Shown one piece after another: positions 35,892 to 64,000 of a stretch of DNA of 64,000 nucleotides. The notes beneath the pieces were generated by a model. The model was not told the origin of the DNA. It did no database searches and worked only from the letters and a program-made list of their open reading frames with translations. Position 1 is the stretch's first letter. Each line of letters begins with the position of its first letter. The stretch is from positions 13,622,354 through 13,686,353 of the forward strand of contig NC_045139.1 of the NCBI RefSeq assembly GCF_008831285.2, in the 5' to 3' direction. This DNA comes from Nymphaea colorata (taxonomy: Eukaryota > Streptophyta > Magnoliopsida > Nymphaeales > Nymphaeaceae). A program made the position numbers and the translations under genes.

Positions 35892-38800
35892 ATGGCAGGA
35901 GGCAACGGGCAGAAAACCAAGACAGCGAGGGAGAAGCACCCAGAGAAGCAGAAACCCGTGAAAGGTTTCCTTCTTTTCTCCCCTGCCTTGAAATTTCTTC
36001 TTGATCGGGCAAATGAAATTTCTTTCTGATCGCGTGAATGATCTATGCTCCGGGCAGCATTTTTACTCCCCAATCAAGTCGATTGAGGGTTTGAGATGCG
36101 ATAATGCGTTTAGGGTTTCGCATTTCCCCGCCTTGTACTGTTTTGGCGACCTTTTTGTTTGAATCTATGTGTCGTCGTCTCCAATTTATACTACGTCGAC
36201 TTTTGTGATGATTTTATGTCTTTGAGCAGAATAATTTTTTTCGTACTAGATTAAACTACAAAGTCTATAGTATTTCTCTTGGTTATATAATCTGTTTATT
36301 CGTTGGAGTTGGGCTTTTATGTTGTTTCCCCCCCTTCCTTTCTTGTTGCTAATTTGCCGGACTGAAGATATTGGTGATTGTCGATTAAGTACGGGGGTAC
36401 AAACTCCTACCTATTTTTGTGTGCCGTAGGGTTATTGTTTACCGAAACAAATCCGATGGTTATAAGTTCAGTTTAAAGTGAGGTTTCATTAGAAAATCCA
36501 ACGAGGGGAACCATTTTCTCTTAACTTCATTCCCTATAATAATCTTTGTCTGCCGAAGATGGTGCCGCTGCTAGGTATAGACCTGGCATTTCGGGCCCTC
36601 CTTCCTCAATTGCATTAAATGTCTTAAATGTGAAATTGAAAGTTGTAAAATTGCTCGATCCTTCTCTGCGTTGAGGCTTGGTTACTAAATCCTGAGTTGT
36701 TATGTTGACACGGAGTTGACTTTCCATGACCCACTGTGGTGATATGTCAAGGCACTGATATTCCACTTTCGTTTAAATATCTGCACCCACTGTGGCGTTA
36801 TGTCAAGGCATTGATGTTCCACTTTCGTTTAAATATCTGCAGGTGGCCAACTTGAACCAAACAAGAAGGCAGCATCCATTCAGGTAACCACAGCCTTGAT
36901 ATTTCTGTTCTTTTCTTTTTTCCCGTGCTCTGTTGGAACATAGGAATTGTAAGGCTTTTGTTAAATGAAAATCAGTCGGTTGACTCAGAAATCTGTCTGC
37001 CTTAAAATCGGAATGTATTATCTATTTCATGTCATTGAAGTTGGTTATTGAGAAGGTTGTGGATTCGTTTTTATCCAGTGCAAAGCCTCCCTGCTAAGCT
37101 TTGGCATTATGCAACGATTGTTGCTGAAGGATTTTTGTTTTTTTTTCCCTGATTCTTTTACTCTCTATTGTTTGTGATGAGGGAAGGGAAAGGTAGAATA
37201 ATCTTGGGACATTGCTTATGTGTTGTAGTGAAGTTTAATGACCACAAGCTTCTAATCATTCTCTAAACTCCATCTTTTTTGGTTTAAGTGGTATCAATAG
37301 TGAGCTGAGGTCCTACGTGTGTTTCTAGAACCTCATGCACTCCTGTCACGATGAATATTGGTCTGATGACTCTGTTTAGGACAACCTATCATTGAAGTAC
37401 TTATTTTATCACCAACTGCTTCCATATGGTTGGACACATTAGCCTCTAAATATTTTTGATTGAGGATGATGATGAAGCTATACTGATACTGGTGGAGATG
37501 AACAACATCCTGTGTATTTTTGTATAGAATAACATGTTGTGTGTGCATATTTTATCAACATGCATCATGAGCAATGTGCATCTCCTAAGCATTCATCCTA
37601 AATAGGTTCCTGGAGCTTCAAAGGACAGAAATTGGTCACTTAGTTGTATAATCCAAACTCATGGATGTATATTCTACCTGTTATCACGTGAATCATGTAC
37701 TGACTGAAGTTTCTCTTCTCATGATAAGATATGCTTTAGTAAAAAAAAAAAAAAAGGTACAGTTCTATATTGCACAGTGTAGAAACACACACCAAGATGG
37801 AGAGAAAAAGAAGGAACACACAATATACGTGGAAAACCTCAAAGAGAGGTGAAAAACCACGGAGAAGCTCTAACCTAGGTGCACAACCGCAACCCTAGGA
37901 GAGAGAAAATGTTATTCCACTTAATTCAACACTTACACATAAGTGACAATATATAGAGGGAGAGAGGAGAAGCCGCCTAGGGTACCGAGCCAGCCTCGGT
38001 ACCCGCGCCCCATAGAACCGGGTCCAGATATGGACCCGGTTCCCACAACAACATATTCTAACACTCCCCCTCAAGCTTGGCATACATGTCAAACATGCCA
38101 AGCTTGCTAACATTCTTTTCGAATGAAGAAGTACAAAGCCCTTTAGTTAGGACGTCTGCAACTTGATCTTCAGACTTCATATATGGCAGAATCAGCTCCT
38201 TTGAGTCAATGCGTTCCCGGATAAAGTGACGGTCAATCTCCACATGTTTGGTCCTGTCATGTAGAACTGGATTATTGGCAAGATTAATCGCAGACTTGTT
38301 GTCACAGTACATTTTCATTTTATCTTCCAGTTCCACACCAATATCAGTCAAAAGGATCTTCAGCCACAGCATCTCTGTAACTCCCATTGCAACAGCCCTG
38401 TACTCAGCCTCAGCACTAGACCTCGAACACACTTCTTGCCTCTTGCTTCTCCAAACAACTAGGTTACCTCCAAGAAAGATACAATACCCTGTAGTGGACC
38501 TCCTTGTGTCAGTGCAACCTGCCCAATCTGCATCTGAGTAGCCCTCAATAGTAAGTTTGTCTTGTCGAGTATACAGCAGTCCTTTTCCTGGGTCATTCTT
38601 TAGATATCCCAACACTCTTTCTGCACTCTTCCAGTGACAATCCGTGGGAGCATGCATAAATTGACTTAGCATATTTACCGCATACGTGATATCAGGGCGA
38701 GTTAGAGTAAGATAGATAAGCTTACTTACTAGCCTCTGATATCGCCCTTTTCCTTCCTCATCCAGAATAGTGCCTGTCTTGATACTTATCTTAGTCCCCG

Positions 38801-41800
38801 ATTCCATAGGAGTAAGATAGAGCCTACAACCAAGTTTACCTGTCTCCTTAAGTAAGTCAAGAGTGTACTTCCTTTGATTCATAACCAGCTCTGTCTCTGA
38901 TCGAGCAATCTCTATCCCCAGAAAGTATCTCAGTTTACCCAGATCCTTGAGGTCGAATTCTTTAGCTAATCTCTCCTTCATCTTCCTGTTTTCTTCCTCA
39001 TCACTGCCAGTGACAATCATATCATCAACGTAGACAAGGAGAAGACTCACCAGACCATCTCTCTGCTTTATGAATAGGGTATGATCTCCATTTCCTTGCT
39101 TGTACCCAGTAGACTTCATAACGATCCTTAGTCTCTCAAACCAAGCTTTAGGCGACTGCTTCAAGCCATACAAAGCTTTCTTGAGGTGACAACATTTTCC
39201 CTCTTGAACATACCCGGGAGGCATGTTCATATAGACTTCTTCCTCCAGATGGCCGTTCAAGAATGCATTTTTAACATCAAGCTGGTCCATGCGCCACTTC
39301 CTGTGCACAGCAAGAGCAAGAATAACCCTCACGGTCTTCAACTTTGCAACAGGGGCAAAGGTCTCAAGGTAGTCAATCCCATACTTCTGGCTGAACCCCT
39401 TTGCAACCAGACGAGCTTTATATCGATCTACAGTGCCATCAGGTTTATACTTCACGTTGTACACCCACTTAGAGCCAACTAAGTGTGTCCCTTTAGGGAT
39501 ATCAACCACTTCCCATGTTTTGTTCTTAGCTAACGCACCCATCTCCTCCGTCATAGCATGTAACCACTTGGGATCATCTTTAGCATCATCCACCGACCTG
39601 GGAATAACAACTTTGGATAAGGTTGTGATAAAACATTTGTAATTTGTACTGAGCTTAGCATAAGAAACAAATCTCTGAATAGGGTGAGAAGTACATGACC
39701 TGGTGCCTTTGCGCAAAGCAATGAGGAGCTCTTCATTCGATGGGCTTGGGTCATCCAGGGAGATCACAGGATTAGGATTGGTTCTATCCTCATCACCAAC
39801 ATCTTCCACTGTAGCTTTCTCCTTTCTGACATAAACCTGGCCAAACAAGTGATCCCTGGCAACAGTGGGCTGAGCATCCACCGTGACCCCTTCCATATAA
39901 CTGCCCTTCTCATTACTGACCGTGACCGTGTCAATCACACTGGGACTAACTTTGTAGTCCAAAAACTCCATAAACTGAATCAGCTGATTAGAGGAATACT
40001 CTTCCCCTTTGTTCCCAAGACACTCCCCCTGAAGAGGATTCACCGGAAAATACGACTCATGTTCATGAAATGTGACATCCCTCGAAACATACACTTTGGA
40101 AGTAGTGGGATCCACACATTTGTACCCCTTCTGAGTGGAAGAGTACCCCAAGAAAACTCCTTTAATAGACCGGGGATCAAGTTTTTTGAGAGTAGGGCTA
40201 TGATTATGCACAAAACAACTGCACCCAAAGACACGAGGAGTAAGAGGCCACGGATTCTGAGTGGGCCACAGGGTAGAATAAGGAGACTGACCATCCAACA
40301 CCCTAGTAGGCATACGGTTAATGAGGTGTGCACTAGTGAGAAGTGCATCACCCCAATACCGCTTCGGGACATGGCGTTGGAACATAATGGCCCGGGTAAC
40401 ATTCAAAAGATGACGATTTTTACGTTCAGCTATACCATTTTGAGGAGGGGTATAACTACAAGAGGTTTCATGAACAATACCCTTGCCTTTCAAGAAATCA
40501 TCAAGGGATTGAGAGACATATTCCATAGCATTATCCGTACGGAAAGCTTGAACAGTTGTATGGAATTGAGTCTCAACAAAGGCAACAAAGTTTTTCACAA
40601 CTGCTGGAACCTGACTACGTTCTCGCAACAAGTACACGAACGTACATCTAGAGTAATCATCAATAAGCGTCAAAAAATAGTGACAACCACCACACGTGGG
40701 TACTCCAGAAGGACCCCAAACATCGGAATGAACTAAGGCAAACGGATGAGTGGTTTTATTCAATGAGATAGGGTACGAAGCCCTGACATGTTTAGCCAAT
40801 TGACACACTTCACAAGCGAAGGAGTCAATGGAGACAGAAGCAAACAAATGAGGAAACAACTTCTTTATTAACTGAAATGGGAGATGTCCAAGACGCTCGT
40901 GCCATCGCAGAACAGTAGATCTATCATTCACACCAGACAAGTGACCACTCGTGGCAGAAATCAATGCTGAAGCAACTTGCACCGGCAATCTGTAGAGCCC
41001 ATCAGTAACCGAACCAATCCCAATCTTCTTCCTCGTCACCAAGTCCTGCAGGGAACAGTGATCAGCAGAGAAAATCAGATTACAGTTTAATTCTTTAGTA
41101 ATACTGCTGACAGAGAGTAAGTTCACATGAATATTTGGAACATGCAGGGCATTGTGGAGACGATATTTGTTCAACAGGGACAAGCTCCCTTTCCCAGCCA
41201 CAGAGATAGAAGACCCATCTGCCATAGACACGCGTTGCTTGCCAGAGGAAAGTTGATATTCTTGAAAGAGTTTAGAGTCCCCTGTCATGTGGTGAGTGGC
41301 TCCACTATCAACAATCCAATCACCAAGAGAAGAGTTACCTTGATCAGTCGAGGCAACGAGGGCTTGGGCTAGCTGAGCCCCTTCAGACGTGGAGGACTCC
41401 TCAGGGGTAGTAGATAGGCGGCTGATGTACGCCTGTAGCTCCTTGAGTTGAGCAGGGGACAGCTTGGACTTTGCACCACTAGAAGAATTGCTCTGACTGG
41501 AATCAGACACAGAAGGGCTACGCTTGCCAGAGGGAGGACGACCTCTGACCAGTCTCTTCTCGGGATGAAGATCCCAACAGAAATCCACCGAATGCCCCAA
41601 CTTGTTGCAATGAGTGCAATGCCGGGCAGGACGCTGCCCAGTCCCAGAGGCACGGCTGACAAAGGCAGAAGGGCCATGACCGGTGTCAAGATGCATCACC
41701 TGGCGACGTTGTTCTTCAGACTCAACTCGGGCATATACTTCCTCTATCCCCGGAATCTCATCACCATTAAGAATCTGGCTACGAATAGACTCAAATTCAT

Positions 41801-44800
41801 CCCGCAGGCCTCCCAGAAACAAAAACGTACGGTCCATCCATTCCTTTTCCCAGTAGAGGGAATGATCTGAACCGCACTTCCACTCATCAGTCACATGATA
41901 ATCTAGCTCCTCCCATTTGGTCTTCAGGGCAGCATAGAAGGCAGCAACAGACAAATCACCCTGTGTCAGGGAGTAAATACTGCGTTTAATCTGATAGGTG
42001 CGCAGATGTCTCTTCTTGTGACCATACATCTTCGCAAGCACAGTCCACATATCAAAAGAGGTCGGCTTCCGCAGAATGAGGGGCTGGATATCGGAGGACA
42101 CGGAGCTGATAATCCATACCTTCACTTGGCTGTCCTCCAACGCCCACGTTGCCCAATGAGGATCAGATTTGATGGGCGCAGGTTTGTCGCCAGTGATGTA
42201 AGAGAGACGCCCACGACTAGTAATCCCAATCTCGAGAGCGGCAGACCAAGATAGGTAATTGTCCTTGGTCAGACGGATGGAGGTGACCTGGATCGGCACG
42301 TTCTCAGTCTTGGAAGCGCTGCCCGCGTCAAGAACGGCATCTTTTTGAGTCCCCATCGCGTCTGCCATCACAAACACGCACACAGCAACAAGAGGCACAG
42401 CGGCGAGAACTAGGCAGAGGCGACGGGAATGAGGCAGCGGCTACGGAAGGCAGGCGGCGACGTTCCTGGGCAGCGGGAAAACGATGGACGGCGACGGCGA
42501 TGGGCAGCGGTGGCGCGGGACGGCGCTGAAGTGGGCGACGACAGTGATGGACAGCGGCAACGCAGCAGAGAACACCCGCGCCAGACGATGGCGGCGCAGC
42601 TGGCAGCGCTGGACGGTGGGGGCGCAGCTGGCAGCGCTGGACGGCGGCGGCGCAGCAGAGGCAGAGAAAAAAAAAACCGGCGGAAACAGCAGCGGCAAAA
42701 AAAACGGCGGAAACACGACTATCACACCAACGATCTCTCACGCGTTGGCTCTGATACCATGTAGAAACACACACCAAGATGGAGAGAAAAAGAAGGAACA
42801 CACAATATACGTGGAAAACCTCAAAGAGAGGTGAAAAACCACGGAGAAGCTCTAACCTAGGTGCACAACCGCAACCCTAGGAGAGAGAAAATGTTATTCC
42901 ACTTAATTCAACACTTACACATAAGTGACAATATATAGAGGGAGAGAGGAGAAGCCGCCTAGGGTACCGAGCCAGCCTCGGTACCCGCGCCCCATAGAAC
43001 CGGGTCCAGATATGGACCCGGTTCCCACAACAACATATTCTAACACACAGGAACAAAAATAATTAATATTTTCTTGTTAAATTGATTTGATTCTAAGCAT
43101 GAATTTTAGTGAATAAGCCATAGGAAGCATGTATGCATGCTTTGATTACAAAGAACACATGCATATATGTTGCATATGTACTTGCATACATTGTTTATGA
43201 GTTATACATATGCCTTTTCTCCTTTCCTTTTCCATGTATAGAGTGTGCATATGCACACAGATATGAACCTTAGATGTTTTTTACTGCTGTCAATAGAAAT
43301 AAAGTTCACCAGATAGTGGACAATAATGCGGCTATGTATGCATGTGAAAATTATGCTTTAAGTGATCTGAATTGTTCTGTTCGACCTATTTGCAGAAGCA
43401 GTCAAAAGTTAAAGACGTGTTCCAACTATTTGCTGAAAAGGTGAGAGAACATAAAAAGCTGGAATCCAGATGGGCTGTATTACAAGAAACAAGAGTTGAA
43501 TACTTCCGGGGCAAGGACTTTGTATCCTTTCTGAAGAATCACCCTGAGGTCAAGGAAGTATTGGGATCAGAGAAAAATTTGGACGTGGAGAGCATTGGTA
43601 ATACTTTACTCAGGAAAAGTCTTATTGTTCGCTGTGATCGACTAATAAAAATTATTCGACCTGGCAAGAAGAAGTTATCAACATGGCCAGCACATCTGGA
43701 AATATTTCCTGTAAGTATTTTGAATAATCGAACAATAATAGCCATCCAAAGTTATGCATCCAGTCTTATAGTAGGCATTATTGGTCAAAGATCTTTTTAT
43801 TTTCTTCTGGGTTACCCTTGTGAACTATGTTGCTTCCCATGGAAGGGAAAGGAAAATTTTATGGTTGTTGTTTATGGATACATGTTCTGTGCCAAGTCTT
43901 CTCTTATTTGAAGTTTGCTTTCTTACACGGCAGAAGAACTTAAGAAATTAGTATTTAAACTGCTTGCTTTGGCTCTTCAGCAAATATAAGAGTTTTCCTT
44001 ATTGTTTATTTATCTGGCATGTTTTTTAGCCAACTAATCTGAATTTAAATGGTCTGGCGTCTATGTTGATGTGTTCCTTGAACAGTGATTCCAGGCATAA
44101 GGTCAATTTGAGTGGACTTCTCATTTCTGTCAAACTTAGGATATGCACTTTGTTTAACAACTTCATATCCACCCATGTCTAATGAATGAAATAGGTACTA
44201 AACTACTTTCAGCACCCTATGATGAGCCTCCTTATAATGATAGAGCTGAGTTATTTGAAAACTTTAGATGGATAGCAGGATAATTGTTTTCTGCTCTCAA
44301 GTTAATATTGTGTTTTGGTGATTTTAGGTTCAGAATTTCAGCACAGGAAATCATTCAGAAGAAATGGATTTTATTTCAAACTGATGGTTGAAATTTGCAG
44401 TCTGAGTTTTGAATGCCATAAGGCATAACTACTTGGGGGAATAAAATTTCCATCCTCCAATGGTGCCTGTATGATATGTTAATTATTGCTAATCAAGAAC
44501 CCTACTGATATTCCTTTCCCTTAATCTCTTGCAGGATCAGGTTTTTTCAGAGAATGATGCGTTTTTCGCATGGACATTTGTGAAAAGAAGGCCCCTGTGG
44601 CAGACCATTCTTTCGTTCCTAGTACCTGTGGTTACTCTAGCGTGCTGCTTGTTCCCTGTATTCCCTCATTGGTGCAAACTCCTGGTTCTTTACTTCTTGG
44701 TTGGATTTCTATTGTTCATCTGCACGATGCTTTTTTGTAAGTGTCAACGGGTGATATCTTCCATGATAATTACAGTAGCTTGCCTTTTGACATTTCTGTC

Positions 44801-50000: not shown

Positions 50001-51903
50001 GTCAGAATAGACCTTTATTTCTGGTGTTGTGACAGGCATAACAATCACTGCATGGCAATTCAATCTTTGAGCAGCCAATGCGACACCTTGGGCATGGTTT
50101 CCAGCAGACGAGCAGATGACTCCTCTGTCTAATTGTTCTTTTGCGAGATGGGCCATCATGTTATAAGCTCCACGTAACTTAAATGAGAAGACCTACAAAT
50201 TCTCATTATTAGTTAGTACATACACAAACAATTTGCAACTTGTCGAAGGAGGATGTTAATCAAATGCTGAGAAAAATTTAGGCAGAGAGCTGCATTGTAA
50301 CAAAATACATGTTAACCTTCCATAATTTATTCTATTAGACTTTTGGTCTATGTTTCCTTCATACTTTTTCTGGCCCATTTGTCATAAATGAAATCAGAAG
50401 ATTAAGCGATAATAGTTACAAAAATAGAACATCATCATTTGATAATAAACTGATGCTTGAGTAGCAGCCACAATCGCAGAACACATTATTAAATCAACAA
50501 GCAGTATACTGCATTTCTGAACGTTGTTCTGCTGGAGTTTCATAAAATTTTCTTCACAGCTTTGCCTATAGCTTCGAATTTTCATGCTAATTATAGTCAA
50601 ATACATGAGCACCTCGCTTCCCATTGGCTGACGGCATCAACCAACAGCTTTTATAGTGACAATTTGATGTTAAAGAAGCACACGTATAATGAGAAATGTC
50701 AATGGAGGTTGAGAAAAGGAGTACAGGACAGAAGACATGCGCCAAGTAGTAAGCAACATCGGTCTAAGAGGACAATTTCCATAAACTAATATGCCCAGCT
50801 TCATTGTTTCAGCTGCCTAATGCATGATAAAGACTCTGAATCTCCCAGTACACAGCAAACCACAAGTAATATAGTTAAATTTCCAGCCTTGCCTTCAAAA
50901 AATCACCTTAGTCACCTCTACGCGGCGGTTGCAGGATCAACCGCAGCTATGCCATCTCCAATCAATCTTCAAAAAGTATAGGAAGATAAAACCAACCAAT
51001 AACCTGAATCTCCCAGTATTTGATCCAGTAAGAGCCAAATTACGGTTTAGCTCGTGTGGTTCAAGTTGGTAAATGACTAACTTAACGTACAAAGAACTTT
51101 GAAATGGAAAGGATAATATCAAGTAAAAGTCAATTCAACATGCATAAAATATTAAAATTGTTTTTTTACATGGCACAACTACAATATCTTCTTCCATTCG
51201 TTTAAATGGTAAAATTCTAACAGTTTAGACTTTAGAGAACATTCACCGCTAATTCTGTTATAACTCGATCTACACTCAAAGTCTCAAAGGTTGCAGCACG
51301 GCTTAACGTGTATACGGCTTATATGCATCAGTAATCTATTCTCATTTAGCCAATCAATTGCTAGCGAAAACAACCATCATAACACCAAAATCAAAGGAAG
51401 AGACTCACAGGCTGCAGGTCCTCTCTCTTGAGCCATATATTGACGCCGCTCCTCTCAGAAAGCTTCGCCGCATACTGCAATGGCGATTCAATGGCGACAT
51501 CATAGACCTTGGAAGAAAGGATACTGATCAAGTAGGACGAGGCACTCGTTACATCATCACCCTCGACCACAGATTTAGTCCTTTCGGAGACCCCACCCAA
51601 GTACCCAGCTTGATACTGCAATGAATCAGAAGAGACCTTCTCTAGTGAGACAGAACGCTCTAAAGAATTCTCTTGGGGAAGAGAGGACGGTGGCTGTTGT
51701 GCAGAAAGGGAGAGCTCTTGACCCTTGGCAATAGCCAACGCCAGGAATAGGTGTTTGGAGATGTGGGAGGTGGCGGAATTGGCGTTTTTGGTCGTAGGAA
51801 GGGCGAGATTGGCAGGAAAACCATGATCACAGGCAACCTTCTTGTGAGGGAGGGAAGGAAGATGAAGCAGGTGGGTGCTGGGATTAGACAAGAGTGCCTC
51901 CAT
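47034..51903 (-). CDS. OMR1: Biosynthetic threonine deaminase, plastid (OMR1)
   Basis: PLP enzyme converting threonine to 2-oxobutanoate, the first and isoleucine-inhibited step of isoleucine synthesis in plastids. Nine exons (51903-51409, 50192-50013, 49641-49372, 49271-49065, 48708-48460, 48366-48293, 48050-47933, 47848-47714, 47174-47034) join in frame to 622 aa; Arabidopsis OMR1 is about 592. The N-terminal about 90 residues are transit-peptide-like. The catalytic domain begins [22 protein letters not shown]. The PLP lysine is Lys170 in [10 protein letters not shown], and the phosphate-binding glycine loop VGGGGLIAG is at about 296-304. [11 protein letters not shown] is also intact. The C-terminal half has the two ACT-like regulatory repeats ([14 protein letters not shown]..; [42 protein letters not shown]). 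The intron between exons 6 and 7 uses a GC donor. An upstream in-frame ATG at 51972 exists, but MEALLSNPS at 51903 is the better transit-peptide start. Confidence 0.96.
47283..47436. mobile_element. MITE-like inverted-repeat element in OMR1 last intron
   Basis: The left end CCAGTGACACCTTAAG..GTGTGGTAA..GGAACGTTGCGTT is mirrored by the right end, whose complement reads CCAGTGCCCTTAAAGTGTG then AGAACGCTGCGTT. These form imperfect terminal inverted repeats of about 40 bp around a short AT-rich core. The CAGTG tip recalls hAT-type MITEs. I could not find a clean target duplication, so boundaries are approximate. Confidence 0.55.
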
Positions 51904-52280
51904 CGAATGGAAGAGGGAAGGAGGGAGGCGCCTCCTTTTCTCTTTTTCCCAGGAAACGAAAGAGGGAGGCAAAGTGAAGGATCAGCTTGGCAGGTGATCT
52001 AAACGATCAAGGAAGTCGAATGCTTTGAAATCCTCACCGTTCTCTAGTTTCATCAAGCGGTCGGTTTGGGCCGTTCGGCCAGTTCTCTGGCTGCTGTGAA
52101 GTGCTGATATCTTTTTTGGCGGCTTTATCTAGCGCGGTTGATGTACGCAATCGATGGTGAAGATAACATAACATTTTTATCACCGGATTTAGCTAAATTA
52201 TATAATCCCTATATTTGAAAAAAAAATAAATCTCTATAATATTTTCTTTTCACAAATAGGCAAGGTTCATGTTTGGCAAC

Positions 52281-52542
52281 TTAGGGTGTGTTTAGATACA
52301 CACCCAAAACCTCCAAACTGTTTTTTCTGGCTTGAAAAAAGAGCTTTCAGAAAAATGAATTTTCTGTCGTAAAGGAGTGAAACGAAACTACCTCTCCCTT
52401 GTGTTATTCATGTAAAAACATGTTTTGCTTGTCCATCCAAACATGACAAACGACGTTTTTCAAAACTCATTAAAAAAACCACTTTACAAAACCAAGCTTT
52501 TTATAAATCGTTTTTTCAATGTGTCATCCAAACAATACCTTA
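52281..52542. mobile_element. Tourist-like (PIF/Harbinger) MITE
   Basis: A 256-bp AT-rich element (52284-52539) with terminal inverted repeats GGGTGTGTTTAGATA and, reversed, GGTATTGTTTGGATGA. It is flanked on each side by TTA (52281-52283 and 52540-52542), the target duplication typical of PIF/Harbinger MITEs. It is non-coding. Confidence 0.7.
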
Positions 52543-52686
52543 TGTGTGGAGAGGAAAGCAACTGTGACTACCTTATGTGTGGAATGCAAAGCAACTGTGA
52601 CTGGACTCAGTTTTACCTTCCCACAGCACAGTGGAAAGAAAGGATAACAGGAAGACATGAAGTAGCAGAAGACTCCTCAAAGACTA

Positions 52687-52784
52687 GACTCAGCTAATCC
52701 CCATGTCCACAAAGACTAGACTCAGCTAATCCCCATGTCTTCAATCACATTGACTCAGCTAATCCCCATGTTTTCAATCACAGT
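52687..52784. repeat. Three short tandem copies
   Basis: GACTCAGCTAATCCCCATGT occurs three times in a row, at about 52687, 52724 and 52751, with spacers CCACAAAGACTA and CTTCAATCACAT. It lies just upstream of the PPR cluster. Confidence 0.85.
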
Positions 52785-52985
52785 GAATCTGCACGCAGAG
52801 AGTACAACGCTTGTTACTGAAGAAACATTTTTCTGTGGCAGGAGGCATGCCAACAAGAGGCAAAAGTGCGGTAGGCTGCACGCTAAAATCAACAGAATGG
52901 CCGGGTATCGGGTATGATGTGCCTATCCCGGACTCAACCGAGAATCTACATCTGGCCTATCTATTGTTATCATCACTAATAACAG

Positions 52986-54597
52986 CCAGTCATCCAGGTT
53001 CCGAATTTCGATTTTTTACGTCGGAATTGGATGAGCCATTAAGCAAACAATTGGTTTTCTTCTTCGAGACCAACAAATTCCCTCGAAAAAATTGACCATC
53101 TTGCTTGCAATCCGAAATCTCTTTGTAAAATTCGATGGTTCTTGTCACCAAACTTGCCAAAAGTTCATGGTTTTCTCACTGCCATATATTTTTTGTCCCT
53201 TCTTTAGAGTCCTTGCACCCTATTCCCATTTTGGAGTTCAAAAGAATGCCACCATACAATCTCATAAGATATTAGACAAGGTATTGATACTAATTCAAGG
53301 TCCTCTCCCACTCTTTTTGGTTATTTTAACTTTGTCGGTATTCTTTAACGATGATGCTAAACTTAGTTTGTGGTTCATGTTTCCTTGTTGTAGTTATATT
53401 ATGGGAATGTCAGCATGCTTAGTATTGATAAAGTTAGTCAGTCTGCAATACGTGCCGACGAATTCTACGAGGAAAAAATGGTGGGTAGAGATTTTGAAAT
53501 GGGCAGAAGTAATAAAGAGATCAGAATAGATGGTTTTGATTTTCTTTATTTGATGGAGGGACGAGGGATTCAGCCGGACGCCGAGACTTTCGCCTTATTA
53601 CTCAATCAAGCTTGGAGGTTCAAGTCTGTACTGGATGCTAAGAGGATTCAGGGGAGGATTTTGAAGTTGGGGTTTGAGGGAGAACTGTCACTTGGGAATA
53701 AGTTGATTAATGTTTATCGAGATTTAGGCAGCCTGGCAGACGCGCACCAAGTGTTTGGTACAATGTGTTGGAGGGATGGCATTTCTTTTAGTCATATTAT
53801 TGCAGCTTGCATTGCTGAAGGAAGGAAGGTGTCGGCATTAAAATATTTTATGAGTATGTAAGATGAAGGCTTGGAAACCGACCTGGTTACGTTGTCACAC
53901 GTACTGAAGGCTTGTTTTGGGGGATCTGTTGGTTTTAGTTTTGTCAGGCAGTTGCATGGAAAGATTAATCGATTATGATTTCATATAGCGGTCGGCAATC
54001 TGTTGATGATGGGGACCCAATAACATGGAATGGCTTGATATCCGGATTTGCGCAGAGTGGACACTTTGAGGAAGCGGTCCAGGTTTTTTCCCGTATGCAC
54101 AAGGCTGGCATTGAAGCAAGCTTGTACACATTCTGCTCAACCATCAGTGCTTCTGCAAATTTGGCAGATGTAAAGCAAGGGAAACAGATACACACTCTTG
54201 TGATAAAAGGTGGTCATGAGTCGGATACAGAGGCTGGTAATGTTTTGGTTACACTCTACGCTATGTGTGGGAGTATTGAAGATGCGTATAGAGAGTTTCT
54301 TTTAATTCCACAAAAAAACGAGGTTTCATGGAATGCAATTATCACAGGTTATGCACAACATGGACATGGTAGAGAAGCATTGAGACTTTTTGAGTGGATG
54401 AAAGAAGAAGGCGTGAGACCCAATCATATAACCTTTATTGGTGTTCTTTCCGCTTGCAGTCATGTGGGCTTAGTGAGTGAAGGACTTGGCTTCTTCAGGT
54501 CCATGAGTCATGAGTACAACATTTCTCTCAGATCAGAACACTATGCTTGTGTGGTTGATATTCTCGGCCGCGCTGGAAGTTTCGATGATGCACTTGA
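52986..54597 (+). pseudogene. PPR copy A: DYW-type PPR gene fragment with internal deletion
   Basis: Homologous to copy C (about 57605-60437) from its upstream flank (CAGTCATCCAGGT near 52986) onward. The coding part begins near 53418 (MLSIDKVSQSAIRADEF) and reads PPR repeats to about 53860. There CAA has become TAA in the codon after KYFMSM. Reading continues as PPR sequence to about 53970, with further stops. At about 53995 it jumps to the later SVGDGDPITWNGLISGF repeats, removing the middle of the gene; the join lies in a shared CAATCTGTTG-like stretch. It then matches copy C almost exactly (53995-54597), stopping at FDDA before the E and DYW domains, where the inverted copy B2 starts. It cannot make a full protein. 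The 212-codon frame at 53975-54613 is only a leftover of several repeats. Confidence 0.9.
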
Positions 54598-56009
54598 CCA
54601 CCTTTTATCATAAGAGTGTGTATCTGTTTCCCTTGCTTTACATCTGCCAAATTTGCACAAGCACTGATGGTTGAGCAGAAGGTGTACAAGCTTGCTTCAA
54701 TGCCAGCCCTGTGCATACGAGAAAAGACCTGGACCGCTTCCTCAGAGTGTCCACTCTGCGCAAATATGGATATCAAGTCATTCCATGTTATTGGGTCCCC
54801 ATCACCAACAGATTGAAATGCGGCATATGCTTCTTTGATCTGGCCACATCTTGCATACAAAGTTACAAGTGCATTTCCAATGGACAAATCAGATGAATAT
54901 CCATGGACAACAGATTGGGAATGGACCTTCTTTCCCTCTTCAAGTGCTTGGAGGCCAGCACACGCACTAATGGCACTAGATAATCCTATGTTATTAGCAC
55001 GCATTCCCTGAAGCTGCATCGGGCCTCAGCAATTCTGTCATGTTGAGAATATCCGGAGATCATTGAAGTCCATGAAACAATGTCATGCTCGGGAAGACGG
55101 TCAAGCATTTTCTGAGCAATATCAAGTCTTCCACATTTTGCATACATGTCTATCAGCACGCTAGACACATAAACATCAAGCTAAAACCCAGATTTAACGG
55201 TCTGAGCATGAATCTGTTATCCAAGATCAAGGTTTCCCAAGAAAGTGCAGGTCCTTAGTACACTAGGATACGTGTACTCATTGGGATCTATCCCTGTGAT
55301 TTGCATTTGAGAAAACAGTTCAAGAGAGTCACTTAGATTGCCACATCGATAATATAAGGTGATAAGAGCATTACCAACAAAAGTTTCGGAGCCAAATCCT
55401 TGCTTTTAAACCTCTGCCTGGAGTTGCTTGCCCTCCTCAAGAAGTTCAATTTTCGCACAAGCACTCAGCACAGTTGAGAAGATATAAGGAGTCGGTGCAA
55501 TAACAGATACTTGCATCTGAGAGAATATAAATAAAGCTTCTTCACTTCAACCGTTCTGAGCATAACCAGATATCATAGCCACCCAAGACGTGCAGTCCCT
55601 CCAACCCAATTCATCAAAGACCACACGAGCCTTAACGATGTCACTAGCTTTTGCATATAAATCGATTAACGGATTGCCAACCGCTAAATCTATATGAAAT
55701 CCTAATCGAATAATCTTTCCACGCAACTGCCTGACAAAACTAAAACCAACAGATCCCCCAAAACAAGCCTTCAGTACGTGTGACAACGTAACGAGGTCGG
55801 CTTCCAAGCCTTCAACTTGCATACTCATAAAATATTTTAATGCTGACACCTTCCTTCCTTCAGCAATGCAAGCAGCAATAATATGACTAAAAGAAACGCC
55901 ATCCCTCCAACGCATTGTACCAAACACTTGGTGCGCGTCTGCCAGACTGCCTAAATCTCGATAAACATTAATCAACTTATTCTCAAGTGACAGTTCTCCC
56001 TCAAACCCC
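54598..56009 (-). pseudogene. PPR copy B2: truncated, inverted PPR copy
   Basis: Minus-strand copy of the same gene, fused head-to-tail behind B1 at about 56009 and tail-to-tail with copy A at about 54598. It begins inside the gene (LGFEGELSLxNKLINVYRDLG) and runs through HQVFGTMRWRDGVSF, DLYAKASDIVKARVVFDELGW and ALITLYYRCG. Then it jumps, in a shared GGCA, to SLELFSQMQITGIDPNEYTYPS and on to HTLMIKGG, where it ends. Several in-frame stops are present (for example after SGYAQNG and in the region GNLDLG). It also shares with copy C a frame break at ARCSFRECVLIT / MQLQGMRA. Clearly non-functional. Confidence 0.88.
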
Positions 56010-57590
56010 AGATTTAGTTACATATGCATGAAGCTCCTGACCTTTCCAAAAGTCACCAATACTAGCACAGACACTCAACAAACTTGCAACAGTTACAGGA
56101 TCAGGCTTCAAGCCACAGACCTGCATCTGCATGAAGAATTCTAATGCTCTTTCACTATTCCCACAAAAGGCATGTCCAGAGATCATTGAATTCCATGTAA
56201 TACTGTCCCAGTGCTTCATCTTGTCGAATATCTGTTCTGCTAAGAATGGACTGCCACATCGATAATATAAGGTGATAAGAGCGTTACCAACAAAAGTTTC
56301 GGAGCCAAATCCCAGCTTATAAACCTATGCCTGGAGCTGCTTGCCCTCCTCAAGAAGTTCAATTTTCGCACAAGCACTCAACACAGTTGAGAAGATATAA
56401 GGAGTCGGTGCAATACCAGATCCTTGCATCTGAGAGAATAGAAATAAAGCTTCTTCACTGCAACCGTTCTGAGCATAACCAGATATCATAGCCACCCAAG
56501 ACGTGCTGTCTCTCCAACCCAATTCATCAAAGACCATACGAGCCTTAATGATGTCACTAGCTTTTGCATATAAATCGATTAACGGATTGCCAACCGCTAA
56601 ATCTATATGAAATCCTAATCGAATAATCTTTCCATGCAACTGCCTGACAAAACTAAAACCAACAGATCCCCCAAAACAAGCCTTCAGTACGTGTGACAGC
56701 GTAACCAGGTCGGTTTCCAAGCCTTCATCTTGCATACTCATAAAATATTTTAATGCCGACACCTTCCTTCCTTCAGCAATGCAAGCAGCAATAATATGTC
56801 TAAAAGAAACGCCATCCCTCCAACGCATTGTACCAAACACTTGGTGCGCGTCTGCGAGACTGCCTAAATCTCGATAAACATTAATCAACTTATTCCCAAG
56901 TGACAGTTCTCCCTCAAACCCCAACTTCAAAATCCTCCCATGAATCCTCTTAGCATCCAGTACAGACTTGAACCTCCAAGCTTGATTGAGTAATAAGGCG
57001 AAAGTCTTGGCGTCTGGCTGAATCCCTTGTCCCTCCATCAAATAAAGAAAATCAAAACCATTTATTCTGATCTCTTTATCACTTCTGCCCATTTCAAAAT
57101 CTCCACCCACCATTTCTTCCTCGCAGAATTCGTCGGCACGTATTGCAGATTGACTAACTTTATCAATACTAAGCATGCTGACATCCCCATAATATAACTG
57201 CAACAAGGAAACATGAACCACAATTTAAGTTTAGCATCAAAGTTAAAGAATGCCGACAAAGTTAAAATAACCAAAAAGAGCGGGAAAGGTCCTTGAAGTA
57301 GTATCAATACCTTGTCGAATATCTTATGAGATTGTATGGTGGCATTCTTCCGAACTCTAAAATGGGAATAGGGTGCAAGGACTCTAAAGAAGGGACCAAA
57401 AATATATGGGAATGAGAAAACCATGAACTTTTGGCAAGTTTGGTGACAAGAACCATCAAATTTTACAGAGAAATTTAGGATTGCAAGCAAGATGGTTGAT
57501 TTTTTGGAGGGAATTTGAAGGTCTGGAAGAAGAAATGGAATTGCTTGCGTAATGGTAAAATTAAGCAATAGATGAACCATTAAGCAAGCA
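56010..57590 (-). pseudogene. PPR copy B1: 5' part of the PPR gene, inverted
   Basis: Minus-strand copy with the upstream flank (about 57590-57230), a likely 5' intron acceptor (TTGTTGCAG near 57200), and a long open N-terminal part (57221-56325). It reads MLSIDKVSQSAIRADEFCEEE, then PPR repeats to KIELLEEGKQLQA, where a TAG occurs; copy C has CAC ATG here. PPR sequence resumes (MKHWDSITWNSMISGHAFCGN .. HAYVTKSG) until about 56010. There it joins copy B2 at a shared TGGG, between CTGGGATTG and TTGGGGTTTG of the parent. B1 is the copy with the best-preserved N-terminus but lacks the second half and DYW domain. Confidence 0.88.
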
Positions 57591-57604
57591 ATTCAATAAC
57601 AGTG

Positions 57605-60600
57605 GTCATCCAGTCATCCAGGTTTCGAATTTCGATTTTTTACGATGGGATTGGTTGAACCATTAAGCAAGTAATTCATTTTCTTCTTCGTGACACACAA
57701 ATCTCTCGAAAAAATCGACCATCTTGCTTGCAATCCGAAATCTCTCTGTAAAATTTGATGGTTCTTGTCACCAAACTTGCCAAAAGTTCATGGTTTTCTC
57801 ACTGCCATATATTTTTGGTCCCTTCTTTAGAGTCCTTGCACCCTATTCCCATTTTGGAGTTTGGAAGAATGTCACCATACAATCTCATAAGATATTCGAC
57901 AAGGTATTGATACTACTTCAAGGTCCTTTCCCGCTCTTTTTGGTTATTTTAACTTTGTCGGCATTCTTTAACATTGATGCTAAACTTAGATTGTGGTTCA
58001 AGTTTCCTTGTGGCAGTTATATTATGGGGATGTCAGCATGCTTAGTATTGATAAAGTTAGGCAGTCTGTAATACGTGCCGATGAATTCTACGAGGAAAAA
58101 ATGGTGGGTGGAGATTTTGAAATGGGCAGAAGTGATTAAGAGATCAGAATAGATGGTTTTGATTTTCTTTGTTCGACTGAGGGACGAAGGATTCAGCTGG
58201 ACGCCGCCTTATTACTCAATCAAGCTTGGAGGTTCAAGTCTGTACTGGATGCTAAGAGGATTCAGGGGAGGATTTTGAAGTTGGGGTTTGAGGGAGAACT
58301 GTCACTTGGGAATAAGTTGATTAATGTTTATCGAGATTTAGGCAGCCTGGCAGACGCACACCAAGTGTTTGGTACAATGCGTTGGAGGGATGGCGTTTCT
58401 TTTAGTCATATTATTGCCGCTTGCATTGTTGAAGGAATGGAGGTGTCAGCATTAAAATATTTTATGAGTATGCAAGATGAAGGCTTGGAAACCGACCTGG
58501 TTACGTTGTCACACGTACTGAAGGCTTGTTTTGGGGGATCTGTTGGATTTAGTTTTGTCAGGCAGTTGCATGGAAGGATTATTCGATTATGATTTCATAT
58601 GGATTTAGTTGTTGGCAATCCGTTAATCGATTTATATGCAAAAGCTAGGGACATCATTAAGGCTCTTGGGTGGCTATGATATCTGGTTATGCTCAAAACG
58701 GTTGCAGTGAAGAAACTTTATTTCTATTCTCTCAGATGCAAGGATCTGGTATTGCATCGACTCCTTATATCTTCTCAACTGTGTTGAGTGCTTGTGCGAA
58801 AATTGAACTTCTTGAGGAGGGCACGCAGCTCCAGGCACATGTTTATAAGCTGGGATTTGGCTCCGAAACTTTTGTTGGTAACGCTCTTATCACCTTATAT
58901 TATCGATGTGGCAGTCCATTCTTAGCAGAACAGATATTCGACAAGATGAAGCACCGAGACAGTATTACATGGAATTCAATGATCTCTGGACATTCCTTTT
59001 GTGGGAATAGTGAAAGGGCATTAGAATTCTTCATGCATATGCAGGTCTGTGGCTTGAAGCCAGATCCTGTAACTGGTGCAAGTTTGTTGAGTGTCTGTGC
59101 TAGTATTGGTGACTTTTGGAAAGGTCAGGAGCTTCATGCATATGTAACTAAATCTGGGATTGAATCAGATTACATTGTTGAAGGGTCTCTGCTTGACTTT
59201 TACATTAAATCAGGTGACCTTGCTGCTGCCCGTGCATGTTTTGATGCAACAAAAAAAACCAATGTGGTGCTATAGAATTTGATGCTCATTGCATATGGAC
59301 AAATTGGCAATCAAATTGACTCTCTTGAACTGTTTTCTCAAATGCAGATCACAGGGATAGATCCCAATGAGTACACGTATCCTAGTGTACTAAGGACCTG
59401 CACTTCCTTGGGAAACCTTGATCTTGGAGAACATATTCATGGTCAAACCATTAAATCTGGGTTTCAGCTTGATGTTTATGTGTCTAGCGAGCTGATAGAC
59501 ATGTATGCAAAATGTGGAAGACTTGATATTGCTCAGAAAATGCTTGACCGTCTTCCCGAGCATGACATTGTTTCATGGACTTCAATGATCTCCAGATCTT
59601 CTCAACATGACAGAATTGCTGAGGCCCGATGCAGCTTCAGGGAATGCGTGCTGATAACATAGGATTATCTAGTGCCATTAGTGCGTGTGCTGGCCTCCAA
59701 GCACTTGAGGAGGGAAAGAAGGTCCATTCCCAATCTGTTGTCCATGGATATTCATCTGATTTGTCCATTGGAAATGCACTTGTAACTTTGTATGCAAGAT
59801 GTGGCCAGATCAAAGAAGCATATGCTGCATTTCAATCTGTTGGTGATGGGGACCCAATAACATGGAATGGCTTGATATCCGGATTTGCGCAGAGTGGACA
59901 CTTTGAGGAAGCGGTCCAGGTTTTTTCCCGTATGCACAAGGCTGGCATTGAAGCAAGCTTGTACACATTCTGCTCAACCATCAGTGCTTCTGCAAATTTG
60001 GCAGATGTAAAGCAAGGGAAACAGATACACACTCTTGTGATAAAAGGTGGTCATGAGTCGGATACAGAGGCTGGTAATGTTTTGGTTACACTCTACGCTA
60101 AGTGTGGGAGTATTGAAGATGCGTATAGAGAGTTTCTTTTAATTCCACAAAAAAACGAGGTTTCATGGAATGCAATTATCACGGGTTATGCACAACATGG
60201 ACATGGTAGAGAAGCATTGAGACTTTTTGAGTGGATGAAAGAAGAAGGCGTGAGACCCAATCATATAACCTTTATTGGTGTTCTTTCCGCTTGCAGTCAT
60301 GTGGGCTTAGTGAGTGAAGGACTTGGCTTCTTCAGGTCCATGAGTCATGAGTACAGCATTTCTCCCAGATCAGAACACTATGCTTGTGTGGTTGATATTC
60401 TCGGCCGCGCTGGATGTTTCGATGATGCACAACAATTTATAGAGGAGATGCCCATCAGGCCTGATGCCATGGTTTGGAGAACACTTCTCAGTGCTTGTAC
60501 TGTTCGCAAAAATTTGGAACTTGGGCAGGTTGCTGCACAACACCTTCTAGAATTGGAGCCACAAGATTCTGCAACTTATGTATTACTATCGAATATTTAT

Positions 60601-61080
60601 GCAGCACTTAGAAAATGGGATGCTCGCGATCAAATCAGGCAAATGATGAAAGACAGGAGGGTAAAGAAAGGGCCTGGTCAAAGCTGGATTGAAGTGAAGA
60701 ACATCGTACATGCATTCTTTGTCGGTGATCGTCTTCATCCATTATGTGAAAAGATCTATGAGTTTTTGGAGGTCTTGACTAACAGAACATTGGCGATTGG
60801 GTATGTTCCTGATCATCAGAGTCTCCTGCATGATCTAGAGCTGCAACAGAAAGACCCAACTGTGTACGTGCACAGTGAAAAGTTGGCAATTTCTTTTGGA
60901 CTCATGAGTTCGCCTCCTGGGATCCCTCTTCGTATAATAAAAAACCTGCGGGTGTGCAATGATTGCCATACTTTCATGAAGTATGTTTCCAAGGTTGTTA
61001 GCCGCGCAATTATAGTACGAGATGCAAATCGGTTTCATCATTTTGATAATGGGACCTGTTCCTGTGGAGATTATTGGTGA
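57605..61080 (+). pseudogene. PPR copy C: near full-length DYW PPR gene, At4g13650-like, broken
   Basis: The only copy with the C-terminus. It has a PLS-type PPR tract, E/E+ motifs (AMVWRTLLSACTVRKNLELG, PGQSWIEVKNIVHAFFVGD) and a DYW deaminase-like domain. That domain contains HSEKLAISFG (HxE), CNDCHTFMK (CxxC) and ends CSCGDYW at 61080. Such proteins edit C to U in organelle RNAs. It resembles Arabidopsis At4g13650 along its length. The upstream half carries several lesions compared with copies A and B: a TAA near 58138; a small deletion near 58205; GGA to TGA near 58590; a 40-bp deletion near 58664; TGG to TAG near 59275; and a frame break near 59628. The last 483 codons (59629-61080) are open. 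The whole is best called a pseudogene unless a truncated protein is made. Confidence 0.85.
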
Positions 61081-63069
61081 TAGCGCTGTTCTTCCATTTC
61101 TTTTCTTCTACAGAATGCATGTCCATTAGGATCATGAATCATGGGGTGCACGGGATAAAGGGGACATGAAACAATTTGTTTTTTTCAAGCACTTCTTTCC
61201 GGCGGTACGTGCTCATGCAGAACGTACGTCAGTCAGGGCAGACAGGTTAAAAGGGAATGGATAATAAAGTGTCCCGTACGACAAAGAATATTGCTTACTG
61301 CTTGGATAAAACCGCGAAGACATCCTTCCTGGACCTATCTACCTGTTGTATAGTTATTTGAAACAAAAAAGCCCGAATCTTCAGCATACTTCAAATGGAT
61401 CTCTACTGTTCATTGGTTTTGCTGAAGAATTATACCAACATCCTATACCATATCGCTGTATCTTCATGTCACATTTTAGAATCGTACTCTTTCTTTCATT
61501 TGGTTGACTCTTTCTGTTAATTTTTTTTTTCTTGTATGTTGTACAGACTACAGACTGGCCGATCAGGCTTTTTAGGTCCGTTATATAATTGAATCTTGGT
61601 GGTGTACTAGAAATCTACGTCGAGGCATGTGGATATGTGTGCCAGCCGCTTCAAAACCTTTTCAAACTGATTTGATCCAATTCACATCATATCCCTAATC
61701 CTGTTTATCATCTCAATGGCAGCCCGATATTTCCAACTATCTTCATAAGGCCCTTTCTTTATCTGAACTGCTAAAAAAGGAAAACATGATGAAGTTACAT
61801 CACATGGTATTTGCAAGTGAATGTATGCTTTTCGACATTGTTGTACACAAACCAGAGAATATCTTGACTTTGTAATTGTAATTTGGTAGCCTATTATTAT
61901 TATTATTATTATGTTCTTTTTCTTAGTTTTGTATAATTGATGCTTTACCTTGGTTTAAATTTTTCAAGCACCTGATGCTTCTTCGGTGCTAATTAAAGTT
62001 AGTGCTAGTTTTGTGTCCGCACACTGATAATGGGAAACGGATGCATGGCGTCTGATTAGTACGGATGTTTCACATTCATCGGTAGCTGTCCTATAAAGAA
62101 AACGGAGAGATACAAACATAAGCAAACATGAAGATACAAATGGTGTGCTCACTTTCTTAAGAAGTGAAGCTTTAAATATTGCTGTTTATTTGTTAAATCG
62201 CTTTTGAGCTTGCTTGATTGGGTGATTGATTTTCAAAATGTCGATAGAATGTATTAGCGATAGTCTCAGAAATTAAAAAGCAACAAAAAACAAAGAACAC
62301 AAAATTTTTCGATGATGAAGTGGTTTTTTGGCTTTTTTTTTCACGAGTAAACAACCCGTTTACTCAGTGAACAAGCAACATTTTGCACTTAAACTCCGAC
62401 TATGTACACAGAAACAATCGATAACCCTATTCCGTGAAAGTGGCTCTCCACAAAGGCGATCCAATGTTAAGCCGCAAAGCTACATGTAGATCGCATCCTA
62501 TATTTGGATCTTAGAGAGTATTGTCCAGCCTCTCTGTAAGAAGAAAACAGATGGGCGGATAGTAAGAACAGGACCCGGATCATCTCCTTGGAAAACGGCA
62601 GAAGAAAGAGAAAAAGAAAAAACGCAATTCTATAGAGACCATGTTGGTTCATGAACTCCGTAGAAAGGTGTTATATACTCTATCAACTGCCCAATGAAGT
62701 GGGTGACACCGTTTGTTTAACGTTACTGAAAATTAGTTACCACTGCCATCTTACAAGTTTTTGTTTGAGTTGTATCTCAGATTCACTGAAACTTGCTGCC
62801 ACTGATACTACTAGAAACATAAACGTCCAAAGTGTTGCATGTTTTACTCACCACTTAATGCGTAACTTATGATCTTGCCCATTGGGCTACTTTAGCCTTC
62901 ATGGTTTCCTTCCGCTTTACTCGTATGTTTCTTCCTAATTTTTCCTTTCTATCAATATATCAAGTTATTTTCATTGCAATGTCAAACTTGTGTTATCTTA
63001 AAGTTCTCATCAACCAGAAGATTGCTTCAATGTTGATTGGAATTATGCTTGGGGTTGGGTTTTATGCAG
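61081..63069. other. Intergenic, PPR cluster to RFC3 fragment
   Basis: AT-rich. It includes an (ATT)n microsatellite near 61891-61912. No gene, RNA or element was recognised. Confidence 0.5.
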
Positions 63070-63676
63070 ACTGGAAGCAGAACCATTGATCTAGAGATAA
63101 CTACATTATCAAGTACCCACCATGTGGAAATGACCCCAAGTGATGTGGGCTTCCAGGACAGGTACATTGTCCAAGAGGTCATCAAGAAGATGGCCAAGAG
63201 CAGACCCATTTAAACAAAAGGGGAAAAGGGGTTTAAAGATAGGACCTCAATTTGTGTACAGTTTCTTAAGAAAGATGAAGTTTGCATCATTGTTTTGTTG
63301 CATGGGTTGGTCAACCTTGCCACAAATTTGATAAAGTTTCAACTATCTTTCACTTACTTCTGTTGTGGTTGTGGTAAAATTTGGTATATATCGTCTTTCC
63401 ATGTTGTGATTCAAGTTTGTACTGGCATCTCCTCGATAGAGGATATTTTAGTTTATTTCAAAGATCCTTCCGTATAAGCTCAGATATTATGTGTCCAATG
63501 TCAGTTCTCGTGCTCAACGAAGTTGATAAATTATCTAAAGAAGCTCAACATTCATTGCGGAGAACCATGGAGAAATACAGTGCATCCTGTCGGTTGATAC
63601 AGTGCATCTAAAGTGACTGAAGCGGTTCGATCTCGCTGCCTAAATATACAGGTTAATGCCCCATCCATAGAGCAGG
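63070..63676 (+). pseudogene. RFC3: RFC3 (replication factor C small subunit) partial pseudogene
   Basis: Two exon-like blocks of the clamp-loader subunit RFC3. Block 1 (63070-63238) follows a pyrimidine-poor TTTATGCAG acceptor and encodes TGSRTIDLEITTLSSTHHVE, MTPSDVGFQDRYIVQEVIKK and MAKSRPI. It then has TAA where the family has Asp, followed by TKGEKGFK; the donor after AAAG is lost (ATAGG). Block 2 (about 63507-63676), after acceptor AATGTCAG, encodes [20 protein letters not shown] and [12 protein letters not shown] deletion and frameshift remove the CCNSS region. It resumes as KVTEAVRSRCLN, then QVNAPSIEQ and a good donor (GCAG|GTAAAA). The ATPase N-terminus (WVDKYRP, Walker A) is not in the window. 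An intron is retained, so this arose by DNA duplication and not by retroposition. Confidence 0.85.
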
Positions 63677-64000
63677 TAAAATGCATTTCAAACATCTGGA
63701 ATTTGTTGTTTTGGCATGATTGTTGGTAAATCATTCCCATTGGATCTTGTACCTCTTGGGTGTGTGCACATGGCTGAATGCCAATTTGTTACTGTTTCTT
63801 TGAAAAGATTACAGTGGTAAATGTAATAAGCCGCCCGGAAACTGGCCCAAATGCTTAGTCTCTTAGTACCTAACCTCCTCTCAAGTCAGCTGCAGAGGTG
63901 GAAGAATCCACCTCCTTTAAGTCGCATGTTTTCATGTGTGTGGAGCCCCGGTTTGAAGTGTAAAAGCTGGATCTAATACCAACTGTAACACCAGCTGACC
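63677..64000. other. Flank after RFC3 fragment; possible LTR element edge at window end
   Basis: No gene. At about 63970-63981, GATCTAATACCAAC resembles the complement of a tRNA-Met primer-binding site (GCTCTGATACCA). It is directly followed by TGTAACACCAGC, which looks like the start of an LTR seen in minus orientation. The element, if real, lies mostly outside the window. Confidence 0.35.

Follow-up and report, generated by a model that had tools for sequence, protein, structure and literature searches.

Genes for DYW editing factors are usually taken to be stable single copies, and Rf-PPR-like clusters are composed of P-class PPRs without E or DYW domains. The locus described here, from Nymphaea colorata, resembles the Rf-PPR-like clusters in that a number of PPR copies and pseudogenes are crowded into a small region, but it is of the DYW class, its single intact gene being surrounded by fragments that face either way, and the presence of E and DYW domains led us to reject membership of those clusters. 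The intact gene, D, is an ordinary member of the DYW subgroup of PLS-class PPR proteins, in which numerous PPR motifs are accompanied by an E motif, a weak E+ and a complete DYW deaminase domain; what sets it apart is the broken copies next to it. Foldback repair at breaks in yeast gives short inverted templated inserts, according to the part of PMC11724301 on which we draw; here too the joins carry such inserts together with microhomology, although that work concerns induced breaks in yeast and the present case is a fixed plant locus with kilobase-scale copies. Reversed-ends transposition of Ac yields tandem direct duplications and inversions, in the portion of PMC3744419 used here, and this locus likewise has a tandem duplication beside a hAT-type element, but one that is cut short and lies at one join only. 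An excerpt of PMC1790633 describes Arabidopsis MIRNA loci that arose from inverted duplications of coding genes, with 16 MIRNA foldbacks having gene-like arms, MIR161 among them, and miR161 targeting PPR genes. Our locus also contains inverted copies of a PPR coding gene from which long hairpins are possible; compared with the loci in that excerpt, its arms run to hundreds of bases and match imperfectly. Full-text literature searches judged by title gave no paper on PPR pseudogene clusters with inverted repeats and none treating such a cluster under PPR long-inverted-repeat siRNAs, and a full-text search on PPR clusters with gene conversion found nothing.

Layout of the cluster and state of its copies

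The window, that is, the whole stretch of DNA analysed, comprises 64,000 nucleotides (C2:13622354-13686353; NC_045139.1), and coordinates marked ext, like all positions above 64000 given below, continue its numbering rightward (Table 1). Copies in the window were located by repeat search and self-BLAST, each join was compared with both parent sequences, and the genome searched comprised 407.8 Mb in 783 contigs. Between 52 and 62 kb the repeat search gave nine inverted pairs and five direct families, and the two methods agree in placing A, B2, B1 and C where, and in the orientations in which, the original prediction had put them. The bounds it had given the cluster (52986-61080) proved too narrow, as copies E and D also belong to it. 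A DYW-domain family search of the genome (150 of 211 candidates scored) returned, 16 kb to the right of the DYW match of C, another one at C2:13699105 that lies within a frame of 1,051 codons, and all strong matches in DNA searches lay within C2:13675289-13699406 (40 of 48, 17 of 17 and 4 of 4 candidates scored). This interval contains A, B2, B1, C, a scrambled fifth copy E and the intact D; E and D are found 3-13 kb past the window end, D being 12 kb right of C. The copies are 92-99% identical to D, each with private mutations, and identities of 89-99% over hundreds of bases rule out chance resemblance. The prediction had described one DYW gene in four copies; these are related copies, but they are broken pieces. 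At least one stop change occurs in each of the four window copies, A, B1 and B2 are truncated, and the DYW domain is reached in the window only by C, and in the whole cluster only by C and D. No tRNAs and no known RNA families were found in the window, with no Rfam match. A copia-like element was also noted, its Ty1/copia type being assigned by eye only.

Table 1. Coordinates of the features of the cluster, in window numbering (ext, continued past 64000)
Feature	Position	Strand	Description
Copy A	52946..54593	+	Pseudogene; two D-equivalent pieces
Copy B2	54595..56010	-	Pseudogene; 96% identity to D
Copy B1	56004..57556	-	Pseudogene; 96.8% identity to D
B1/C fold-back join	57557..57594	.	14-bp filler and 24-bp direct piece
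Copy C	57595..61080	+	Nearly full-length; 96% identity to D
Open frame of C	59629..61080	+	483 codons; PPR motifs, E, weak E+ and DYW deaminase
C-unit downstream part	61081..64000, on to ext 67409	+	Collinear with about D 77034-87000
Copy E	ext 67444-69604		Fifth copy, scrambled, outside window
Element X	ext 69770-73466		Truncated multi-copy hAT-like element between E and D
Copy D	ext 73460-77033		Intact DYW-PPR gene, outside window

The 1,051-codon frame of D has the full order of a DYW-subgroup PPR gene by Pfam, with PPR motifs (PPR_2, E=5.9e-98) followed by an E motif (E_motif, E=4e-22), an E+ domain that at 22.2 bits falls just below the cut-off of 24, and a C-terminal DYW domain (DYW_deaminase, E=3.5e-39). 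Judged by these domains, D would be a PPR-E-DYW gene for organelle RNA editing. Without a 103-bp candidate intron, which is presumably spliced, the frame of D has 1,113 codons, or 1,080 counted from the first Met. The candidate intron is 113 bp long in A, B1, C and E, and B2 lies outside its span; its retention in these four copies and in D places the copying at the DNA level. Retrocopied pseudogenes were rejected on the same ground and because C and D share kilobases of downstream DNA. It appears to be D, and not some lost copy, that was the source of the pieces.

In A, a 5' piece equivalent to D 73460-74524 is joined at 53996-54007 to a 3' piece equivalent to D 75786-76383 (94% and 99% identical to D, respectively), and the copy has two stop changes, a 6-bp deletion and an internal join that is out of frame. 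B2 consists of D 74179-74853 joined at 55336-55343 to D 75242-76006, with four stop changes, while B1 is a truncated equivalent of D 73556-75098 with one stop change, joined to B2 tail to head. Cut off before the DYW domain and carrying stop changes, none of A, B1 and B2 is a DYW-subgroup PPR gene. The decayed 5' half of C has three stop changes and has lost 9, 40 and, at about 59628, 16 bp in separate deletions; the 3' half is open, and C, having no full-length open frame, is not a full-length member of the subgroup. Substitutions among the copies are mostly star-like and private to each. A 16-bp deletion common to C and B2, together with 75856T (D coordinate), which along with a few other changes is common to A and C, makes later exchange or separate parents likely. 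Such shared derived changes are few and conflicting, and they therefore do not establish that everything arose at once; conversion at a later stage may have blurred the record.

Joins, templated inserts and duplicated flanks

The joins seen in the window lie close to those of the original prediction: A and B2 meet tail to tail at 54593/54595 (predicted at about 54598), B1 and B2 are fused in tandem at 56004-56010 (about 56010), and B1 and C are head to head at 57557-57594 (about 57600). Shared bases, numbering two to five, occur at six of the eight simple joins of the cluster. At the A-internal join CAATC is shared exactly, and the predicted CAATC(T/C)GTT holds as CAATCYGTT with one mismatch; the TGGG claimed at B1/B2 is present as CCCA; and the overlap claimed inside B2 as GGCA is real and reads as TGCCA (5 bp). 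TTG is shared at the inversion join of E, AG, with a 14-bp local repeat, at the internal join of E, and TGGC at the join of the hAT-like element X with D. The 7-kb deletion in the C-unit has no shared base, and nor has A/B2, where base-level comparison found one inserted T at 54594 in place of the supposed GTCA-like overlap. For random joins within D the mean overlap is 0.70 base, and 0.6% of them share five bases or more. Against a null drawn from the D sequence only, and for joins that were not chosen blind, the four joins of the original prediction have 14 shared bases in total where about 2.8 are expected (simulated P about 0.0001-0.0002). The eight simple joins have 23, reached in 2 of 200,000 simulations; their overlaps were scored by eye in the sequences as they stand today. 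The six joins left after dropping the two 5-base joins give P=0.0035. Of four direct joins tested for PPR-motif register, the B2-internal join (in frame) and the B1>B2 join (out of frame) link points that nearly correspond between different PPR motifs (within the top 1.8% and 1.5% of random pairs, respectively), and as such their overlap may partly stem from the repeat nature of the gene. The other two are off-register, and unequal recombination between PPR motifs was therefore rejected as the sole cause.

Inverted templated inserts, absent from the original prediction, are found at the B1/C and C-unit/E joins. At the former, the end of B1 at 57556 is followed by a 14-bp filler and a 24-bp direct piece (57571-57594), after which C resumes upstream. 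This piece is the inverted partner of B1's end and matches E at 24 of 24 bases and D at 22 of 22; the DNA fold of 57530-57600 reaches -16.9 kcal/mol (z -7.3), with none of 200 shuffles as good. At the C-unit/E join, the 22 bases at 67429-67450 match D 76587-76608 without a mismatch and in inverted orientation, and the same sequence occurs in C and E too; the last 7 of these bases overlap the start of E, and the insert proper is 15 bases.

Homology between the left end of A (52946) and the right end of E (69604) stops at the same base, outside which 8 of 60 bases match, ungapped; the left flank of A reads ...GAGAAT and the outer flank of E reads CCCAATCGG.... Homology of D to A begins 7 bp further in, at the border with the truncated element X. 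All three PPR ends are at the foot of an imperfect palindrome, weak in each case (z -2.3 for A, -2.4 for D and -1.6 for E), and this position may be either a fragile site or an end that all three share. When the outermost 101 bases of A were searched, all four matches (4 of 4 candidates scored) fell within the cluster. Nothing thus points to a dispersed element, and the idea of a mobile unit whose left end is fixed was rejected for this reason. Directly flanking the 52946-69604 block, no target duplication of 2-10 bases was found.

C and D are contained in a direct segmental duplication, the C-unit (57595-67409) having 9.8 kb and the D-unit (73492-94811) 21.3 kb. Absent from the C-unit is a stretch of 7 kb that on the D side carries TIC20 (Pfam E=2.6e-72), and the D side is thus probably closer to the ancestral arrangement. 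A 122-codon piece in the same 7 kb, without a Pfam match, resembles by eye what we take to be the first exon of an RFC subunit. The C-unit segment 65761-66593 has no alignment to the D-unit (30-63% mismatch per comparison interval). Divergence between C and D is 69 in 2,000 over 57595-59604, 8 in 1,500 over 59605-61104 (Fisher p 6e-10 between the two) and 18 in 1,500 over 61105-62606. Past 62606 it is mostly higher, at 1.3-9.5% per comparison interval to 65076, with a Fisher p of 6e-5 between 61105-62606 and 62607-64214. The low-divergence, conversion-like tract is thereby 59605-62606, and its extension into noncoding DNA favours partial conversion after copying as a process that may also have shaped the cluster.

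Origin of the cluster

The reading that we prefer, with a probability of about 0.72, is that local break repair or replication repeatedly folded back and switched template, with decay and partial conversion afterwards. The locus would have been copied in direct orientation, giving the C-unit and D-unit, when a break was repaired or replication went wrong on one or a few occasions, and in the left part the same event or events would have involved repeated fold-backs and jumps. Traced along the minus strand in the sense of the gene, the path would start in B1 (D 73556>75098), jump back to B2 (74179>74853), jump forward within B2 (75242>76006), invert into A (76383<75786) and jump again (74524<73460), and E would be a second inversion-plus-jump; the number and order of events and the polymerase involved are what we infer. 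The locus combines the short shared bases, orientation changes and templated inserts by which MMBIR/FoSTeS or theta-mediated end joining is recognised. The 2-5 shared bases at most simple joins and the two inverted templated inserts fit MMBIR/FoSTeS or polymerase-theta end joining, between which microhomology alone cannot separate. Counting against the preferred reading are the A/B2 join and the 7-kb deletion, both without a shared base, and the two overlap joins near corresponding positions of PPR motifs. The appeal of the original prediction to microhomology and template switching is in agreement with the excess of shared bases and with the templated inserts, less the one overlap that is absent. 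Stepwise unequal crossing-over, with separate deletions and inversions between repeats and no template switching, is unlikely: it would suit the direct duplication of C and D and the closeness of the B2-internal and B1>B2 joins to corresponding motif positions, but crossing-over between direct repeats makes neither the A/B2 and E inversions nor the inverted templated inserts. The interpretation given in the prediction, which had set aside simple unequal crossing-over, is partly supported: two joins lie close to PPR register, and a direct duplication and a conversion-like tract also shaped the cluster.

hAT elements have terminal inverted repeats and an 8-bp target-site duplication. Element X has a TAGGGCTG end at 69770, and its relative L042 has inverted ends TAGGGCTG...CAGCCCTA with an 8-bp target duplication GGTAGAGG on both sides; X itself is without a right end, so that hAT features are seen in L042 and only partly in a second relative, L039, which has both ends in view and flanks that match only in part (CGGGTTCA / TGGGCCCA). 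X stops 281 bp short of the right end of L039, at its TGGC overlap with D. A hAT transposon could thus have driven the rearrangement by alternative transposition, leaving truncated X between E and D as a scar, for which the Ac reversed-ends transposition in the cited portion of PMC3744419 is a precedent. We regard this as quite unlikely, given that the flanks of L039 are not identical and that from 51000 to 97000 TAGGGCTG occurs once (69770) and CAGCCCTA is absent, and hence no such end is present at the other joins. The repetition of a unit in tandem on one contig might also reflect an assembly that put two haplotypes or collapsed repeats together in a false order, which is very improbable. 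There are no Ns in 134 kb from the window start, every copy has private substitutions at 92-99% identity, which argues against misassembly, and divergence between C and D ranges from 0 to 17.6% per comparison interval along alignable blocks. Matches outside the cluster are short and weak (at most 127 and 98 bits, among the candidates scored), giving no second haplotype contig among those candidates. As far as the assembly is trustworthy, what surrounds the intact DYW-PPR gene is a cluster of pseudogenes with many joins, copied at the DNA level.

Coding and hairpin potential of the copies

The 483-codon frame of C retains an intact DYW domain (DYW_deaminase, E=1.3e-39), an E motif (E_motif, E=2.7e-22) and an Eplus match of 23.8 bits (cut-off 24). 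Over 75603-77033, C and D have seven differences, six synonymous and one nonsynonymous (one-sided binomial p 0.002, with 0.275 as the synonymous fraction expected). Counted over parts of 75786-76383, the pieces of A, E and B2 have 7 synonymous to 19 nonsynonymous, which differs from C in a post hoc comparison (Fisher p 0.008, or 0.012 when the counts also take in B1 at 4:6 and B2's 5' piece at 9:15). When polarised, three sites are private to C, all synonymous, two are private to D, one is common to A and C and one is unpolarised; C-private changes are therefore synonymous in 3 of 3 cases (P 0.021), or in 4 of 4 (P 0.006) if the unpolarised site is C's. The nonsynonymous change is also in A and so is not private to C. 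These seven sites, tested after inspection, hint that the frame of C may have been constrained after conversion. It is, on this basis, conceivable but quite doubtful that C is alive, its 3' half encoding a short PPR-E-DYW protein split from a full-length editing factor and held under purifying selection. The differences are just seven and the test was picked after the data had been inspected, the ratio over 75786-76383, which A and E also cover, is 2:1 and not significant (p 0.22), the low divergence runs into noncoding DNA to 62606, as conversion by D would have it, and the broken 5' half would hold the targeting peptide and most PPR motifs.

The copies also have the capacity to form hairpins. 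A and B share 372 inverted perfect 21-mers, 365 of them also in D, where they cover 739 of 3,559 positions, and C and B share 1,028, of which 938 are in D. The inverted arms are long (A/B1, 953 nt at 94%; B2/C, 749 nt at 97%) and resemble a coding gene, as in siRNA or MIRNA loci formed by inverted duplication. The A-B2-B1 block could accordingly be a hairpin-RNA locus, read from either strand, whose dsRNA-derived small RNAs silence D and its relatives, that is, an early stage of an inverted-duplication MIRNA or siRNA gene, with a precedent in the Arabidopsis loci of the PMC1790633 excerpt. We consider this distinctly improbable; any inverted duplication yields complementarity, the inverted parts of E have no perfect 21-mer in common, and Rfam gave no match in the window. 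Judged on sequence, what A-B2-B1 would possess is a capacity only. That both readings hold jointly, with a constrained short PPR-E-DYW gene in C (59629-61080) beside a hairpin-forming A-B2-B1 block that feeds back on D through small RNAs, is highly improbable; if true, gene fission and a proto-siRNA locus would have come from the same rearrangement.

The class of mechanism is already known, and the locus is a good example of it and no new kind of system. With readable joins and five decaying, partly inverted copies beside an intact gene, it preserves well, in a plant, the natural traces of fold-back and template-switch repair, and it could serve to test whether gene fragments in inverted orientation become silencing loci or split genes.

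Left flank of copy A

Part of the 193-codon frame matches another contig of the same genome, C1, at the DNA level (79%), and a search of the frame against Pfam gave no match. Between this frame and copy A, the leftmost PPR pseudogene piece, lies a short dispersed repeat whose right end is 400 bp from copy A; 39 of the 41 matches listed for query 51400-52946 sit on or around this repeat, with identities of 69-84%. The left flank of copy A would be the promoter region of this putative threonine deaminase gene.

Features in and beside the window (ext, window numbering carried rightward past 64000)
Feature	Position	Strand	Description
193-codon frame	51391-51972	-	By-eye likeness to first exon of threonine deaminase gene
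Short dispersed repeat	52374-52540		MITE-like
Tandem duplications (2)	18200-18519; 18895-19141		160 and about 125 bp
LTR retrotransposon	37778-43046		Copia-like by eye
Element X	ext 69770-73466 (L009:5770-9466)		Multi-copy DNA with hAT-like end

Repeats and mobile elements

Element X adjoins the 5' end of the intact PPR copy D, and stops 281 bp before the right end of one relative. The tandem duplications show 95-96% identity. Because its two 287-bp direct repeats are identical, CACAG (read by eye) flanks it on either side and its minus strand holds an open frame of 1,458 codons, the LTR retrotransposon is apparently a very recent insertion.
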